From contig JAFUWD010000014.1 of NCBI GenBank assembly GCA_017483645.1, forward strand, positions 1 through 42,637: a stretch of DNA of 42,637 nt. The letters run 5' to 3'. Under the pieces are notes generated by a model. It saw only the letters and a list, made by a program, of their open reading frames with translations, searched no databases and was not told the origin of the DNA. Within the stretch, counting starts at the first letter, position 1. Each line of letters begins with the position of its first letter. Positions 27,780 to 37,835 of this stretch are shown in pieces. The position numbers and the translations under genes are program-made. This DNA is from Muribaculaceae bacterium. GTDB taxonomy: Bacteria > Bacteroidota > Bacteroidia > Bacteroidales > Muribaculaceae.

Positions 27780-28130
27780 ATGCCAAGATCAGTAAATCAC
27801 GTAGCTTCACGAGCTAAACGAAAGAAAATCTTAAAACTTACACGCGGTTACTTCGGAGCACGCAAAAACGTGTGGACCGTTGCCATGAACACTTGGGAGA
27901 AAGGTTTGACTTATGCCTATGCCGACCGTAAGAAGAAAAAACGCAACTTCCGCGCTCTCTGGATTCAGCGTATCAATGCCGCTGCACGTCTCGAGGACCT
28001 CTCTTACAGCAAGCTCATGGGTCTTATCCACAAGGCTGGTATCGAGATTAACCGCAAGGTGCTCGCCGACCTGGCCATGAACAATCCCGAGGCCTTCAAG
28101 GCTATCGTGGAGAAGGCCAAGAACGCCTGA
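27780..28130 (+). CDS. rplT: 50S ribosomal protein L20
   Basis: The 116-residue protein has the full L20 sequence: [20 protein letters not shown], then [39 protein letters not shown] and a C-terminal [14 protein letters not shown] segment. L20 is an early assembly protein of the 50S subunit and represses its own operon in several bacteria. It is the last gene of the cluster, followed by a terminator at 28147-28212. Confidence 0.99.
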
Positions 28131-28146: not shown

Positions 28147-28212
28147 CTGCGCATGGTTGCGCAGACTAATCGCAAAAGCGGACCCCGCAATAGCAAGGGG
28201 TCCGCTTTTTTA
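28147..28212 (+). terminator. Terminator of the thrS-infC-rpmI-rplT operon
   Basis: A first hairpin, CTGCGC (28147-28152) with GCGCAG (28159-28164), precedes a strong one: AAAAGCGGACCCC (28174-28186) with GGGGTCCGCTTTT (28197-28209) and a T-run to 28212. Confidence 0.9.
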
Positions 28213-28228
28213 AGTATCGGCCCGATGG

Positions 28229-28260
28229 TTTGTTGATTTGCGAGGAAATTGCTATCTTTG
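28229..28260 (+). promoter_or_regulatory. Promoter of the TMEM43-like gene
   Basis: TTTG (28229-28232), exactly 20 nt, and TATCTTTG (28253-28260): a perfect match to the Bacteroidota consensus. The gene starts 46 nt downstream. Confidence 0.8.
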
Positions 28261-28306: not shown

Positions 28307-29488
28307 ATGTTCGGCTTTTTGAAAAAGGCGGCAGGCGTGGTGATAACAGTGTCGGCCATAGCACTGCTGGCGTGGAACGAGAGTCATTCGTTTCACGCAC
28401 ACAATTTGTTTGCTGAGGCGGCTTCCAAACTCATCATCGTGGACGACACCACCACAGTGGACCCCACCAACGAAGGGCGTTTGCTGTTTATGAATGTGTG
28501 GGCACATATTGGAGATGACGCGGTGGACCCGCTCTACGGCATCGGTGGGCAATACCTCTCGGTGGAGCGGCAAGTGCAGTATTATCAGTGGCATGAGAAG
28601 GCTGTTGTGACCCGTGCAAGGACGTCCCACGGTACCCGCACATCGTCCACAACCTACGAGTATCATCGCGCTTGGAGTGACAAAGTCATCGATCCTGCCA
28701 AGTTCTCGGGTTCCCGGGCGCGCGATTATGATAACACGCCTGTTGTGCAAATAGAGCCGCTCAAGACTTATTCGCACGGTGCCAAGCTTGGCCCTTACCT
28801 GATGGCCGTTGAACTCATTGACAGCATGCCGTCGCTCAACAGCGATGTGACAGGCAATGGCGGCCTTCGAAATCTGCGGCTCGCCGTGGCCCTCGACTCC
28901 ACCTCACAAGGCGGCAGCATACCCACCCACCAGGAGGGTGACATCATCTACTACGGCAACGACCCGGCCAAGCCCACCGTGGGCGATGTGCGCGTGAAGT
29001 TCGTATACCGTGTGCCGTCCAAGGTGTGGGTGCTGGCACAGGCTCACTCCGACAGCATTCGACCTTTTGTGGGTTCGGAAAATTATTGGCTCACTTATTC
29101 GCGCGTCAACACCCAGCAGTTCGACCCTCGGGAGGAGATTGAGGACGAAACGTGGGGATTCGATGTGCTGGTGTGGGTGTTGCGTGTGATAGGGTGGTTG
29201 CTTATGGTGTGGGGAATCAGGTGGTCGCTCGGAATCATCACATCGCTGTTGGCCGGTGTGCCCGTGGTGGGGATGGTGGCAACTGCTGCCGCCTCGCTGG
29301 TAAGCTGGGTTTTGGGCACGGTGATGAGTGTGCTGGTGATAGCACTCTCCTTCCTGGTGATTCGCCCCGTAGTGAGCTTGTGCCTGCTGGGTGTGTTGGC
29401 CATAGTGGCTTTGGCCTGCTGGCATGTGCACCGCTCGCACAAAGCCCGGTCCAATCGTCCGTTGCCCCCGCCGTTGCCCCCACAATAA
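28307..29488 (+). CDS. TMEM43-family membrane protein
   Basis: The 393-residue protein fits the TMEM43/LUMA family. It has one N-terminal membrane segment (about 6-23, followed by WNESHSFHAHNLFAEA), then a large extracytoplasmic domain of about 260 residues. Family-like parts are GRLLFMNVW, YYQWHEKAVVTR and VGDVRVKFVYRVP. Three or four membrane segments follow near the end (about 288-375). The tail is Arg- and Pro-rich (NRPLPPPLPPQ). The function in bacteria is unknown. It has its own consensus promoter and lies between rplT and the noncoding RNA. No terminator is seen right after it. Confidence 0.82.
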   Translation: MFGFLKKAAGVVITVSAIALLAWNESHSFHAHNLFAEAASKLIIVDDTTTVDPTNEGRLLFMNVWAHIGDDAVDPLYGIGGQYLSVERQVQYYQWHEKAVVTRARTSHGTRTSSTTYEYHRAWSDKVIDPAKFSGSRARDYDNTPVVQIEPLKTYSHGAKLGPYLMAVELIDSMPSLNSDVTGNGGLRNLRLAVALDSTSQGGSIPTHQEGDIIYYGNDPAKPTVGDVRVKFVYRVPSKVWVLAQAHSDSIRPFVGSENYWLTYSRVNTQQFDPREEIEDETWGFDVLVWVLRVIGWLLMVWGIRWSLGIITSLLAGVPVVGMVATAAASLVSWVLGTVMSVLVIALSFLVIRPVVSLCLLGVLAIVALACWHVHRSHKARSNRPLPPPLPPQ

Positions 29489-29542
29489 CCATAAAATTGT
29501 AACAAAAAAGTGGCGGGACAACTGAAAAAAGTGGTGTGACGC

Positions 29543-29573
29543 CTTGTGATGTCACGATAATTTTGTATCTTTG
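29543..29573 (+). promoter_or_regulatory. Promoter of the noncoding RNA
   Basis: CTTG (29543-29546), 19 nt, TATCTTTG (29566-29573). The -7 box is perfect. No gene starts near it, which points to an RNA product. Confidence 0.7.
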
Positions 29574-29579
29574 TGCTGA

Positions 29580-29828
29580 CGAAAGTTCTTTGAAATATTG
29601 TCCACATCAAAGTAGATTGGGATACTCTTCAATTTTTATATGAAATGCCGAGACAAGCATTGCACTCAATGGCGGGCCTCGACCGAAAGGTGCAGCCATG
29701 TGCTGCCAGAGGATTACAAAGATGCGATGCCCTCAAAACTTGTTTTTATCGGAGTTTCATCACATCCTTTGATGTGGATTCTTATAGTGGGGTGCTTCAC
29801 ATTGCTGTGAGGCACCCTTTGTTTTTTG
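29580..29828 (+). ncRNA. Structured noncoding RNA, candidate Bacteroidales-1 RNA
   Basis: A roughly 250-nt transcription unit lies in a 389-nt gap (29489-29877) with no convincing gene. It has its own promoter (29543-29573) and a strong terminator (29790-29828). Nested long-range pairs fold it into one long hairpin: TCCACATCAAAG (29601-29612) with CTTTGATGTGGA (29767-29778); ATGAAA (29640-29645) with TTTCAT (29755-29760); CCGA (29648-29651) with TCGG (29749-29752); ACAAG (29653-29657) with CTTGT (29739-29743). Small hairpins fill the top: CATTG/CAATG (29658-29671), ACC-GAAA-GGT (29682-29691) and GCAGC/GCTGC (29692-29706). From memory, the Bacteroidales-1 motif has a Bacteroidota promoter at its 5' end, terminators at its 3' end, and often lies downstream of the L20 gene. 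All three hold here, with rplT one gene upstream. A 6S-type RNA is the main alternative. The 5' end is inferred from the promoter. Confidence 0.7.
29790..29828 (+). terminator. Terminator of the noncoding RNA
   Basis: GGGTGCTTCAC (29790-29800) pairs with GTGAGGCACCC (29807-29817) with one G-U pair, followed by TTTGTTTTTTG. Its tail overlaps the -33 box of the next promoter. Confidence 0.85.
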
Positions 29829-29848
29829 TGCGAAAATAGTTAACTTTG
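29818..29848 (+). promoter_or_regulatory. Promoter of the DUF1599 gene
   Basis: TTTG (29818-29821), 19 nt, TAACTTTG (29841-29848). A GTG inside the -7 box is in frame with the gene but cannot be the start if this promoter is used; the ATG at 29878 is. Confidence 0.75.
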
Positions 29849-29877
29849 TGGCTCAAACTAATTCAGAACAAACTACG

Positions 29878-30429
29878 ATGAACAATACCAGCGAGCAATT
29901 TGATCAAGTGGTGGCGCGGTGCCGCGGCCTGTATAAGATGAAAATGCAGGACTACGGTCCCTCGTGGCGCATCTTGCGCCCCAGCTCGCTCACCGACCAG
30001 ATTTTTATCAAGGCCAAGCGCATCCGTACGCTCGAAATCAACGGGCAGAGCCGTGTGGACGAGGACATTTGGGGTGAGTTTGTAGGAATTATCAATTATG
30101 GTATCATCGGGCTGATTCAGCTCGACTATGGTTACACCGACGTGGTGGACATGACGCGCGAGCGTGCCCTGGAGCTTTATGACCACTACATGGAGCAGAC
30201 CAAGGCGCTGATGATGGCTAAAAACACCGACTATGGCGAGGCGTGGCGCGACATGCGTATCTCGAGCTATACCGACTTGATTTTGTCAAAGATTCAGCGC
30301 ACCAAGGAAATAGAGAACCACGATGGCCATACGTTGGTGAGTGAGGGTATTGCCGCCAACTATCAGGATATGATTAACTACGCCGTGTTCGCCCTTATCA
30401 AGCACGACGAGAACAGCGAGGCACAGTGA
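29878..30429 (+). CDS. DUF1599 domain-containing protein (two copies of the domain)
   Basis: The 183-residue protein carries two copies of the DUF1599 module, a fold seen in proteins linked to nucleotide modification. The first copy reads YKMKMQDYGPSWRILRPSSL with SLTDQIFIKAKRIRTLE; the second reads MMAKNTDYGEAWRDMRISSY with SYTDLILSKIQRTKEIE. The conserved DYG, W, LR/MR and K-R/Q-I pattern repeats at the same spacing. The activity is unknown. The next gene begins within its last codons (GTGA overlap), so the two are coupled. DUF1599 and the BT_3928-type gene usually travel with tpiA in Bacteroides as I recall. Confidence 0.88.
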   Translation: MNNTSEQFDQVVARCRGLYKMKMQDYGPSWRILRPSSLTDQIFIKAKRIRTLEINGQSRVDEDIWGEFVGIINYGIIGLIQLDYGYTDVVDMTRERALELYDHYMEQTKALMMAKNTDYGEAWRDMRISSYTDLILSKIQRTKEIENHDGHTLVSEGIAANYQDMINYAVFALIKHDENSEAQ

Positions 30430-34490: not shown

Positions 34491-37400
34491 TCATTGTTCT
34501 ATAATGATGTTGACCAGCGCTGTGACATCGGCTACTGAGATTTCATTGTCTTTGTTCACGTCGGCCGTGGGGAAATCGGCTATAGCGGGAGTTTCATTTT
34601 CCAGAATGATGTTGACCAGCGCTGTGATATCGGCCACCGAAATTTCACCGTCCTTGTTCACGTCGCCCGTCAGCATGGTGGGGGGCACAGCGCCCTTGCG
34701 ATAGAAGAACACCGCGTCGAGATTCACGTTCACACCCTGATTGCCGCCGCTGAGCAAGGCGATGGCATTGTCGAGTTGGTTGGCTGCATTGTCAAAAAGC
34801 GGATTGGCAAACTCCAGGAGCTTGCTCACGGGGATGTCGAAATTGTACCACTTCCCGTCGCGATAGAAGTCGCCCAGCAAGCCGTAGAGGGTTCCGTTGT
34901 CGTTGAAGGCCGTCTGACCCAGTGAGAATTTGGCGTTTCCCGCCCAGACTGAATGCGTTACATGCTGGTTGTCGTTGCTCTTGATGGCGAAGTGCAGGTA
35001 GTAGGTGTCGTCAATCATCGACAAGTCCTTGCCGGTACCTGTTCCACCTGTCGAGGCGAAACCCATGCCCGACCATGCCCCGTTTGCCACTGTCACCGAG
35101 GTGTACTCCTCCTCGTAGCCCATGGAGTTCACTCCTTGGCTGGTGTTGCTTTGATAGGTACCCTCCCAGATGTAGAGGAAATTGTTCACGTCGTCGGGAC
35201 GATAGTCGGCCAAAGTCTGCTCCTTGATTTGCGTGGCTTCTTCCTGACCCAGAGCGATGAGCACATAGTCGGTGCCAGCGGCAAAGTCGAATGTGGGTTG
35301 CCCTTCGTTGTCGAGGGCCGGGCTTCCGTAGCGGCCCAGCACGGGGTCAATGTCTTCGTTCGAGCCGTCATCGCTGTGGCGCTTGTAGAAGAACACGTTG
35401 TCGAATTGCAGCTCGGTACCCGTGGCACCTCCGCTCAGGAACGAAATCACATTGCCACGGAAGGCATTCTGTCCGCCATCGTCGGCAAACATTTCCCCGT
35501 AGAGTGAACGCAGCTCCTCCAGTGGAATGTCGAAGCTGTACCACTGCCCGTCGCGACGGTAATCACCCAGCATGATGGGTCCCGATGAGCTGTTACCAAT
35601 CACAAATTGAGCGCTGCCCACGCCCACGGTGTGGCTGGCATGGCGCACCACATCGTTGCCTTTCATGGCAAAGTGCAGATAGTAGCCGTCCTCAGATAGC
35701 ATCGACAAATCTTTACCACGGGCCGTGCCGGCGGCATTGGTCGAGGCATAGCCCAACCCCGACCATCCCACGGAGTTCACCACAAAGTGGTTGTACCCCT
35801 CGTCGAGCCCGAAGGAGTTGTGGCCTTCGCTGTCGACGCTGGTGTAGGTGTTTTCCCAGATGTAGAGGAAGTTGTCCACTTCATCCACGCTATAATCGGC
35901 GCGAATGTTGTCGCCCATTTGGTCGATGACGCCCTGGCTTGCACCAATCACCACATAGTCGTAGCCGTCGGCAAAATCGAAGGTCGACTGACCCTCGTCA
36001 TCGAGCGAGCGTTGCGCGTACTTCCCAATTTCGGTGGTGGTGTCGTCGGCGGGCGGATTGGTGTCGATTTCAGAATTCTTGTAGAAGAACACATTGTCGA
36101 ATTGCAACTCAGCTCCGGCAATGCCGCCGCTCAGGAAATAGAGCACATTGTCCTTCAGGTTGTCGGCATTGGTGTAGAGCGGGTCGCTCAGGCTCTTGAG
36201 CACCGACACCGGGATGTCGAACGAGCACCAGCGGCCGTCGCGCTTGAAGTCGCCCAGCACGGGCAGCACCTTGCCGTTGTCGTTAAAGGGCGCCGCGCCT
36301 ATTGTGAATGCCGCCGCACCCACCGCCACGGCGTGTGCCGTGTGCATCAGCGCATCGGTGCCGCGCATGGCAAAGTGCAGGATGTAGCCCTCTTCATCGA
36401 GCATCGTCATGTCCTTTCCGTGGGCGGTGCCGGTTGGGTCGGTCGAGGCATAGCCCAATCCCGACCAGCCTGCGGAGTTCACCACAAAGCGGTTGTACCC
36501 CTCGTCGAGACCGAAGGAGTTGACCCCCTCGCTCGGTTTGCTGGTGTAGGTGTTTTCCCAAATGTAGAGGAAATTATTCGTGTCGTCCACACTGTAGTCG
36601 GCGCGGATGCGGTCGCCCATCTGGTCAATTACTCCCTGGCTGGCGCCAATCACCACAAAGTCGCTGGCATTGGTGAAATCGAAAGTTGACCGACCGTCAT
36701 CATCGAGCGACAGGCTGCCATAGTGGCCCAACTGGGTGGTGGTGTCCTCCTCAACCTCACCGGTGCCGTTGTCGCCCTCGCTGCCGTCGGGAGTGAAATA
36801 GTTCTTATCGTTGGTTTTTTGATACACGCGCACATAGTCCACCTCCATAGTTTGCTCGCCACTATTCAAAGCCGTGATGCCGGCGGGGTCGAGAATGCCG
36901 GGGATGTTTCCACCCACTGCCACGTTCAGCAGCAGGAAAAACTGCTTGTGGAAGTAGTTTCCGGCCGAATTCTGCTGCGATGCGTCGTTGATATTCATCT
37001 CAAAATAAGGCTCGGTGTCTTCATCGAGGTACATCGAGATTTTCTGTTCGTCCCACATCATGGTGTAAGTGTGAAACTGTCCGTCTTGCAGGCTGTAGCT
37101 GGCTGTGGTGGTGCGTGAGTACATGGGGTGCTGACCGTCTTGATAGGGCCCCCAGTGCAGCGCGCTCACAAAAAAGCGATCTTGCGTGCCCTCGGTGATG
37201 CCTTGTCTGCCACCGGCCTCCAGCACATCGATTTCACCGCAGTAGGGCCAGCTCGTGCCCGAATCCAGGTCATTGCCCATGAGCCAGAAGGCCGGCCATA
37301 GGCCGTTGGCAGTGCGAGGCAGCTTGATGCTTGCCTGCACCATGCCATGCTTGAACGCCACCTTGCCCATGGTGTTGATGCGTCCCGAGGTGAACGACTT

Positions 37401-37673
37401 GCCGCCATAGCTCTGGCGCCGTGCGGTGATAACCAGGTGGCCGTTGGCAACACTCACGTTGCTGGGCAGGTAGTATTGCAATTCCTGGTTGCCGCCGCCA
37501 TCACCGTTCGATTCGGCGTTCCACACGCGCGAGTCGAGTGCTGTGCCGTTGAACTCGTCGGCAAACACCTGCTCATAGCCATCGGGGACTGCTGGCTGTG
37601 CATTTGCGGCCAGTCCCAGGCTCAGAGTGGTGACCAGAGCCAACACTTTTTGGGTTAAGGAAATGTGTGTCAT
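34491..37673 (-). CDS. Secreted GH16 endo-beta-glucanase with three internal repeats and dockerin-like end
   Basis: The 1060-residue protein has a signal peptide (about 1-25) and a GH16 domain (about 30-286) that cleaves beta-1,3 or mixed-linkage glucans. The catalytic motif is E147-I-D149-V-L-E152 in PYCGEIDVLEAGG. Family marks include FADEFNG, LPRTANGLWPAFWLMGND and the C-terminal MEVDYVRVYQK. Three homologous modules of about 215 residues follow (315-532, 549-764, 779-992), then two dockerin-like calcium loops (1003-1060: GDVNKDGEISVADITALVN and ADVNKDNEISVADVTALVN). The start at 37673 places the signal peptide first; the frame extends upstream to 37799, but those residues lack signal features. 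No SusC/SusD pair lies nearby. The exact glucan is unknown; laminarin is a guess from the motif. Confidence 0.92.
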   Translation of the reverse strand: MTHISLTQKVLALVTTLSLGLAANAQPAVPDGYEQVFADEFNGTALDSRVWNAESNGDGGGNQELQYYLPSNVSVANGHLVITARRQSYGGKSFTSGRINTMGKVAFKHGMVQASIKLPRTANGLWPAFWLMGNDLDSGTSWPYCGEIDVLEAGGRQGITEGTQDRFFVSALHWGPYQDGQHPMYSRTTTASYSLQDGQFHTYTMMWDEQKISMYLDEDTEPYFEMNINDASQQNSAGNYFHKQFFLLLNVAVGGNIPGILDPAGITALNSGEQTMEVDYVRVYQKTNDKNYFTPDGSEGDNGTGEVEEDTTTQLGHYGSLSLDDDGRSTFDFTNASDFVVIGASQGVIDQMGDRIRADYSVDDTNNFLYIWENTYTSKPSEGVNSFGLDEGYNRFVVNSAGWSGLGYASTDPTGTAHGKDMTMLDEEGYILHFAMRGTDALMHTAHAVAVGAAAFTIGAAPFNDNGKVLPVLGDFKRDGRWCSFDIPVSVLKSLSDPLYTNADNLKDNVLYFLSGGIAGAELQFDNVFFYKNSEIDTNPPADDTTTEIGKYAQRSLDDEGQSTFDFADGYDYVVIGASQGVIDQMGDNIRADYSVDEVDNFLYIWENTYTSVDSEGHNSFGLDEGYNHFVVNSVGWSGLGYASTNAAGTARGKDLSMLSEDGYYLHFAMKGNDVVRHASHTVGVGSAQFVIGNSSSGPIMLGDYRRDGQWYSFDIPLEELRSLYGEMFADDGGQNAFRGNVISFLSGGATGTELQFDNVFFYKRHSDDGSNEDIDPVLGRYGSPALDNEGQPTFDFAAGTDYVLIALGQEEATQIKEQTLADYRPDDVNNFLYIWEGTYQSNTSQGVNSMGYEEEYTSVTVANGAWSGMGFASTGGTGTGKDLSMIDDTYYLHFAIKSNDNQHVTHSVWAGNAKFSLGQTAFNDNGTLYGLLGDFYRDGKWYNFDIPVSKLLEFANPLFDNAANQLDNAIALLSGGNQGVNVNLDAVFFYRKGAVPPTMLTGDVNKDGEISVADITALVNIILENETPAIADFPTADVNKDNEISVADVTALVNIIIEQ
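34698..36731 (-). repeat. Three tandem modules of about 215 residues inside the GH16 protein
   Basis: Module copies lie at 36078-36731, 35382-36029 and 34698-35339. Shared marks are STFDF, VIGASQGVIDQMGD (diverged in copy 3), DxxNNFLYIWExTYxS, GWSGLGYAST (GWSGMGFAST-like in copy 3), YYLHFAMKG, GDFxRDGxWxSFDIP, FLSGG and FDNVFFYK. Copies 1 and 2 are closest. I do not recognise the family; a carbohydrate-binding role is inferred. Confidence 0.85.
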
Positions 37674-37835
37674 AGTTTTTGGGTTGTTAAGGTGTGGATA
37701 AAACGCAAGCCCGATGAGACGCGTGCAGACAATCCTCTTCCAGCTTCCACTTGTGGTGAGCGTAAGACTGCCGACGTGTTGATAGATTTCCAGATACAAA
37801 TTTCATCGAATTCGCATAAATAGATAGATAACTTA

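Follow-up and report, generated by a model that had tools for sequence, protein, structure and literature searches.

The Bacteroidales-1 RNA in the analyzed window, i.e. the 42,637-nucleotide contig JAFUWD010000014.1 of a Muribaculaceae bacterium (assembly GCA_017483645.1), is best explained as the product of a stand-alone Bacteroidales 6S RNA gene, acting as a polymerase decoy that is released by pRNA synthesis. We put the probability of this reading at about 0.88; it is favored by the places that Bacteroidales-1 has in common with 6S-Flavo, by the architecture of the RNA and by the finding of one match in nearly every genome of the family. 6S RNA governs polymerase availability in many bacteria; its Bacteroidota forms are divided between two Rfam families, both with an incomplete structure. 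The region itself was confirmed as a member of an already catalogued RNA family, ordinary in kind, and its 6S assignment is not new either, as the Rfam entry text for RF01693 reads "Bacteroidales-1 6S-Bacteroidales RNA suggested". What is new here is the covariation support for the closing helix P1 and the second conserved helix P2, evidence that ties two Bacteroidota families together by homology, a helix proposed as collapse helix, and a mismatch in P2 that extends throughout one genus.

By searching the whole window at gathering scores, we found the Bacteroidales-1 model (RF01693) once, together with two tRNAs and no other Rfam match. The Bacteroidales-1 match covers model positions 1-179 in full (Table 1), thereby bearing out the family assignment made in a preliminary description of this DNA from its letters alone. 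That description had also noted a resemblance to 6S RNA and proposed a search with 6S models, the outcome of which was divided: RF01685 (6S-Flavo) matches in related loci but not in the window genome, and RF00013 (general 6S) gave no match at E<=1 in 10 genomes. RF00013 did match 6 of 14 control genomes, Bacillus subtilis among those matched.

Table 1. Features of the 6S-like RNA locus and its neighbors, in window coordinates.
Feature	Position	Strand	Basis
rplT (ribosomal protein L20)	27780..28130	+	Pfam PF00453
TMEM43-family gene between rplT and RNA	28307..29488	+	Pfam PF07787
-33 box TTG of RNA promoter	29544..29546	+	sequence; TTG-N18-22-TAnnTTTG in relatives
-7 box TATCTTTG of RNA promoter	29566..29573	+	sequence; TAnnTTTG upstream in relatives
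Predicted transcript, ~245 nt	29580..29825	+	ends placed from promoter and terminator
Bacteroidales-1 (RF01693) match	29600..29785	+	105 bits, gathering cut-off 60, E 1.8e-16
Closing helix P1, 5' strand	29601..29612	+	perfect 12 bp; covariation
Helix P2 (helix A), 5' strand GAUACUC, presumed pRNA template	29621..29627	+	template role presumed
Helix B (collapse-helix candidate), 5' strand in distal 5' bubble	29640..29651	+	predicted ground state
Apical arm with two small hairpins (limits approximate)	29656..29731	+	fold; covariation
Central bubble 3' strand, starts CUCAAA	29732..29751	+	conservation
Helix B, 3' strand	29749..29760	+	predicted fold, weak covariation
Helix P2, 3' strand GAGUUUC, common to helix B	29752..29758	+	covariation, sequence
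Closing helix P1, 3' strand	29767..29778	+	perfect 12 bp; covariation
Intrinsic terminator, 13-bp stem and T-run	29789..29828	+	terminator scan; counts in 61 loci
DUF1599 gene downstream of RNA	29878..30429	+	Pfam PF07659

The 6S-Flavo model was run on 29 genomes with RF01693 matches, 12 of which matched at E<=1. Eleven of these 12 matches lay inside the RF01693 match, while in one genome (G040) the RF01685 match was found on another contig than the RF01693 match. Only one genome (G257) exceeded the 6S-Flavo cut-off, with 96.8 bits, and RF01693 scored 38.3 bits at the same place. The remaining 17 genomes, that of the window included, had no RF01685 match at E<=1, and the window RNA is therefore not filed as a 6S-Flavo member, even though related loci match both models. 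That two separate models fall on the same 150-200 bases, in genomes measuring 2-5 million bases, argues strongly for homology between Bacteroidales-1 and 6S-Flavo, and the common places thus join the two Bacteroidota 6S families.

The window RNA has the shape of the 6S functional class, i.e. a rod of about 200 nt with a closing stem, a central bubble and an apical arm. The minimum-energy fold of positions 29580-29828 reaches -81.4 kcal/mol, compared to -62.06 (sd 4.44) for shuffled sequences (z -4.36, 0 of 200 as good). As the minus strand folds equally well against its own shuffles (z -5.28, 0 of 200), the fold alone does not set the strand, which was instead taken as plus from the promoter, the terminator and the Rfam match. 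The nested long-range stems and the three small hairpins described previously are all present in this fold, the 12-bp pair of P1 being exact, and a search for inverted repeats in 29490-29900 returned, at the settings used, a single repeat with arms 29601-29627 and 29752-29778. The asymmetric internal loop (29613-29639 against 29761-29766) also appears in the fold, but it contains the 5' strand of P2.

Compensatory changes in relatives, suggested earlier as a check, were found. In alignment A1, comprising 58 sequences (L055, L059, L060 and L062-L064 excluded), P1, P2 and the apical arm together were paired in 94.7% of cells, with double changes in 23 out of 30 pairs; none of 500 shuffles equaled this on any of five measures, and slid partners paired in only 36-50%. 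P1 alone was paired in 97.1%, with double changes in eight of nine tested pairs (0 of 500 shuffles as good on three measures, 22 and 20 on the remaining two), and in helices 3 and 4 of the apical arm all 14 pairs had double changes. P2 is nearly invariant in A1 (98.0% paired, one covarying pair); out of 500 shuffles, 0, 326, 0, 71 and 10 equaled it on the respective measures. It is better supported by its variable end, where 55 of 84 cells at positions 7-8 pair, against 39.5 (sd 3.8) with permuted arms and 0 of 5000 permutations as high, in a test on 81 sequences with 42 distinct arm pairs that takes no account of relatedness and in which three 5' arms (L055, L071 and L108) were misread. The addition of position 9 weakened the result (33 of 5000 as high). 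Furthermore, the six columns CTCAAA at the start of the 3' bubble strand were invariant in the 58 aligned sequences.

The RNA is nearly universal in the family. Among the 226 genomes sampled, all at least 90% complete except for the window's own (79% complete, one copy), which was added, 215 had one RF01693 match each; a first draw had given 56 out of 59. At E<=0.001, matches were found in 36 of 149 genomes of the order (27 above the cut-off) and in six of 247 genomes of a phylum sample (three above it), and three weak matches fall in other orders of the same class. A covariance model built with both P1 and P2 (R1) matched 60 of the 149 genomes of the order, i.e. all 36 found by RF01693 and 24 more, leaving 89 without a match; these counts are to be read with many of the 36 having been used to build R1, with no control genomes and with rough E-values. 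Nine of the 24 extra places were read, and all contain both strands, AAACUC as well as G(A/G)GUUU. Five antisense matches were excluded from set A2. The 11 family genomes lacking an RF01693 match, together with three others, were also negative with R1, and seven genomes (90-98% complete) yielded no copy by RF01693, R1 or an exact pattern. Absence was recorded for seven of 49 genomes in the window's genus vs. four of the 177 other family genomes; it may be due to assembly gaps or to real loss.

The strongest competing explanation is that of a structured Bacteroidales-1 sRNA that looks like 6S RNA but has another job, e.g. regulating by base-pairing or sequestering a protein other than RNA polymerase. 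Such an RNA would account for the silence of RF00013, and it agrees with a 6S role that, for this organism, is read from sequence, as well as with the 2010 description, which in its accessible part states no function for Bacteroidales-1 (Weinberg et al. 2010, PMC2864571). It fits poorly with the places common to 6S-Flavo, with a rod and bubble that combine conserved bubble strands with covarying arms, and with the near-universal single match in the family. In addition, a 6S RNA and two classes of pRNA have been reported from dRNA-seq in Bacteroides thetaiotaomicron (PMC7366714), and for Flavobacterium psychrophilum a 6S RNA is listed with the known RNAs that were detected there (PMC9723704). 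We consider another job improbable, and the resemblance to 6S RNA noted at the outset has gained in substance through the co-located RF01685 matches, the covarying rod and bubble, and the published 6S RNA with its pRNAs.

As a 6S RNA, the rod formed by P1, P2, the open central bubble and the apical arm would resemble an open promoter. It would bind RNA polymerase carrying the main sigma factor and keep the polymerase off promoters as growth slows. When nucleotides return, the polymerase would use the 5' side of both bubble and P2 as the template for a short pRNA, antisense to the P2 5' strand and presumably starting near GAGUUUCCC (GAGUAUCCC in the window's genus). This synthesis would open P2, allowing the freed GAGUUUC strand to pair with the distal 5' bubble as helix B, whereupon the bubble would collapse and the polymerase be released. 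For this organism, we infer the polymerase binding, the template and start of the pRNA, the growth-phase timing and the part of helix B as release form. A more specific kind of promoter mimicry was looked for, by scanning the bubble strands of 64 sequences for the reverse complement of TAnnTTTG, and set aside as a guess only. The best offset on the 5' strand averaged 3.97 of six matches (four full matches) and that on the 3' strand 3.65. A different offset on the 5' strand, which is conserved, came to 3.78, and the best offset was not the same in the divergent group.

The RNA appears to be bounded by signals of its own, as was expected of Bacteroidales-1. Upstream, the consensus promoter of the preliminary description was recovered as TTG and TATCTTTG with a 19-nt spacer, boxes that we take to be of the Bacteroidota type TTG/TAnnTTTG; the sigma-70 promoter scan used on the region was not designed for this type. 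Another box, TAATTTTG at 29558-29565, overlaps the upstream side of the -7 box. Of 61 related loci (L055, L060 and L062-L064 excluded), 57 have TAnnTTTG in the 90 nt upstream (mean of dinucleotide shuffles 4.5), and 50 have TTG-N18-22-TAnnTTTG (0.4). Downstream, the strong terminator consists of a 13-bp stem (29789-29818) and a T-run, against a background of four terminator-like sites in 2 kb where 2.3 are expected, and a terminator follows within 80 nt of the RNA match in 32 of the 61 loci (shuffles 5.9). In three loci from other orders of the same class (L062-L064), the closing helix passes straight into a T-run and may, judging from the letters, double as terminator; no TAnnTTTG was found in the 75 nt upstream of these. 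Two 16-nt direct repeats, AAAAAAGTGGCGGGAC and AAAAAAGTGGTGTGAC, lie 21 nt apart at 29504-29540, just upstream of the RNA promoter, and could be a regulator site or due to chance.

With its promoter, its terminator, no conserved reading frame and one match per genome, the RNA gives the impression of an independent gene. Its position between same-strand genes would also allow a riboswitch-like element acting in cis on a neighboring gene, as its leader or trailer, and the table of the 2010 paper, in the part accessible, enters cis-regulation of Bacteroidales-1 as '?' (PMC2864571). Such an element would not be expected to have a promoter before it and a terminator after it, nor neighbors that vary among loci, and the DUF1599 gene downstream has boxes of its own, TTG-N19-TAACTTTG, at 29819-29848, starting inside the T-run of the RNA terminator; this explanation is accordingly very improbable. 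A small protein gene is harder still to believe, since the 64-codon ORF at 29645-29839, although also 64 codons long in the closest relative (L231) and provided with its ATG in 64 of 64 genus records by a search pattern that required those letters, runs from that ATG for anything between 3 and 90 codons in the nine genus relatives read and varies along with the helices, in keeping with the earlier impression of some 250 nt devoid of a convincing gene.

The RNA is preceded in the window by thrS, infC, rpmI, rplT and a TMEM43-family gene, and followed by the DUF1599 gene and a MauE/DoxX gene. The earlier statement that the RNA often follows the L20 gene held in part. In the window, rplT is located 1.5 kb from the RNA with one gene between. 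Of 64 genus records, selected by the P2 allele described below, 19 have it upstream in the same orientation at up to 750 nt and six farther away; in the other 39 it was not found within the available flanks. In a wider set it fell inside the fetched flank (<=1.5 kb) in 11 of 66 loci. L20 was found near the RNA in a minority of loci. The DUF1599 gene is downstream in nine of the 64 records. The TMEM43-like gene had been correctly recognized, and among the 64 records it was seen to separate rplT from the RNA only in L231, the neighbors of which are 96-100% identical to those of the window, except for TMEM43 itself (77%). As this gene has its own TTG-N20-TATCTTTG at 28230-28260 and follows what, judged by eye, resembles a terminator hairpin downstream of rplT (28180-28212), it has the appearance of having been inserted in this lineage. 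Farther away, the minus strand at 34491-37799 encodes a large, secreted-looking protein that matches glycosyl hydrolase 16 and has a C-terminal dockerin type I domain.

Returning to the RNA itself, its GAGUUUC strand can pair either with the 5' strand of P2 or with the distal 5' bubble as helix B (AUGAAAUGCCGA in the window), the two helices thus competing for the P2 3' strand. Among 63 sequences (L055, L058 and L060 excluded), the predicted energy was lower with P2 in 27 and with helix B in 26, and the gap between the two was at most 2 kcal/mol in 45 and at most 3 kcal/mol in 56. For the window RNA, folding predicts helix B as the ground state (probability 0.99), and in three sequences from the same class its probability is 0.00. 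On A1, helix B was paired in 90.6% of cells with one covarying pair, and its covariation is weak, 31 and 64 of 500 shuffles equaling it in covarying cells and score, respectively. Helix B is consequently put forward as a candidate for the collapse helix, or release form, on the strength of folding predictions. No description of a collapse helix in Bacteroidota, or of the RNA of the window's genus, was found in the literature searched, as far as the accessible texts go.

The window's genus, probably Candidatus Sodaliphilus, carries a change in P2. Its 5' strand reads GAUACUC in the window and GAAACUC in the family. RF01693 matched 42 genomes of the genus, the window's included. Thirty of these were read whole, and all 30 have GAUACUC with GGAGUUUC kept in the 3' strand, i.e. 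without compensation, so that P2 has a U·U mismatch (29623/29756) at its middle. The other 12 were checked by a pattern covering the 5' strand and gave one RNA-like match each, all with GGGATACTC, any further matches lacking RNA context. All 32 family loci outside the genus have GAAACUC, and a scan of named genomes returned 64 records with the GAUACUC allele, two of them Candidatus Sodaliphilus. Being fixed in one genus, the change offers a natural comparison for how 6S RNA lets polymerase go.

Predicted pairing was compared inside and outside the genus. In 66 distinct genus sequences, most of them from records selected by the allele (L204 and L206 were left out, their 3' strand being missed by the pattern), the mean probability was 0.27 for P2 and 0.52 for helix B, compared to 0.49 and 0.44 in 32 other family members. 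The drop in P2 gave p 0.0015 and the rise in helix B, which is not clear, p 0.30, both values being too small since the sequences are related; P2 was still ahead of helix B in 25 of the 66 and in 16 of the 32. A predicted tilt of the genus towards helix B is thereby half supported. Swapping the letter in silico led to P2 0.89 and helix B 0.11 in the genus, and to P2 0.04 and helix B 0.83 outside it, so that other parts of the RNA may have changed in the genus as well, keeping the two predicted states in balance. It is conceivable, if more apt to be wrong than right, that the release switch has been re-tuned in this genus: the mismatch would weaken P2 and leave the collapse helix intact, the free RNA would lie near or in the collapsed state, and release would take place with shorter pRNAs or sooner than in relatives.

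Compared to known systems, the window gene is a full member of Bacteroidales-1, differing from the Rfam consensus, where P1 and P2 are both unpaired, in that both helices are paired here with covariation, and from the rest of the family in the GAUACUC of its genus. Bacteroidales-1 and 6S-Flavo have the same places in 11 genomes and, according to alignments at four loci, the AAACUC strand, the CUGU...GGAGUUU strand and the bubble in common; the apical arm of 6S-Flavo is shorter and different. The 6S RNA of B. thetaiotaomicron (PMC7366714) comes from the same order and is likewise a single RNA with pRNAs, its identity with the RF01693 locus being assumed. The 6S-1 RNA of B. subtilis, a species matched by RF00013 unlike the Bacteroidales-1 genomes searched, shows a competition of P2 with a "central bubble collapse helix" similar to that of P2 with helix B, and a stabilized collapse helix together with a weakened P2 made its release more effective, as far as the accessible part of that study shows (PMC8876501). 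In the window RNA it is the collapsed form that is the predicted ground state, and the genus, should its switch indeed be re-tuned, would be a natural counterpart of those B. subtilis 6S-1 mutants.
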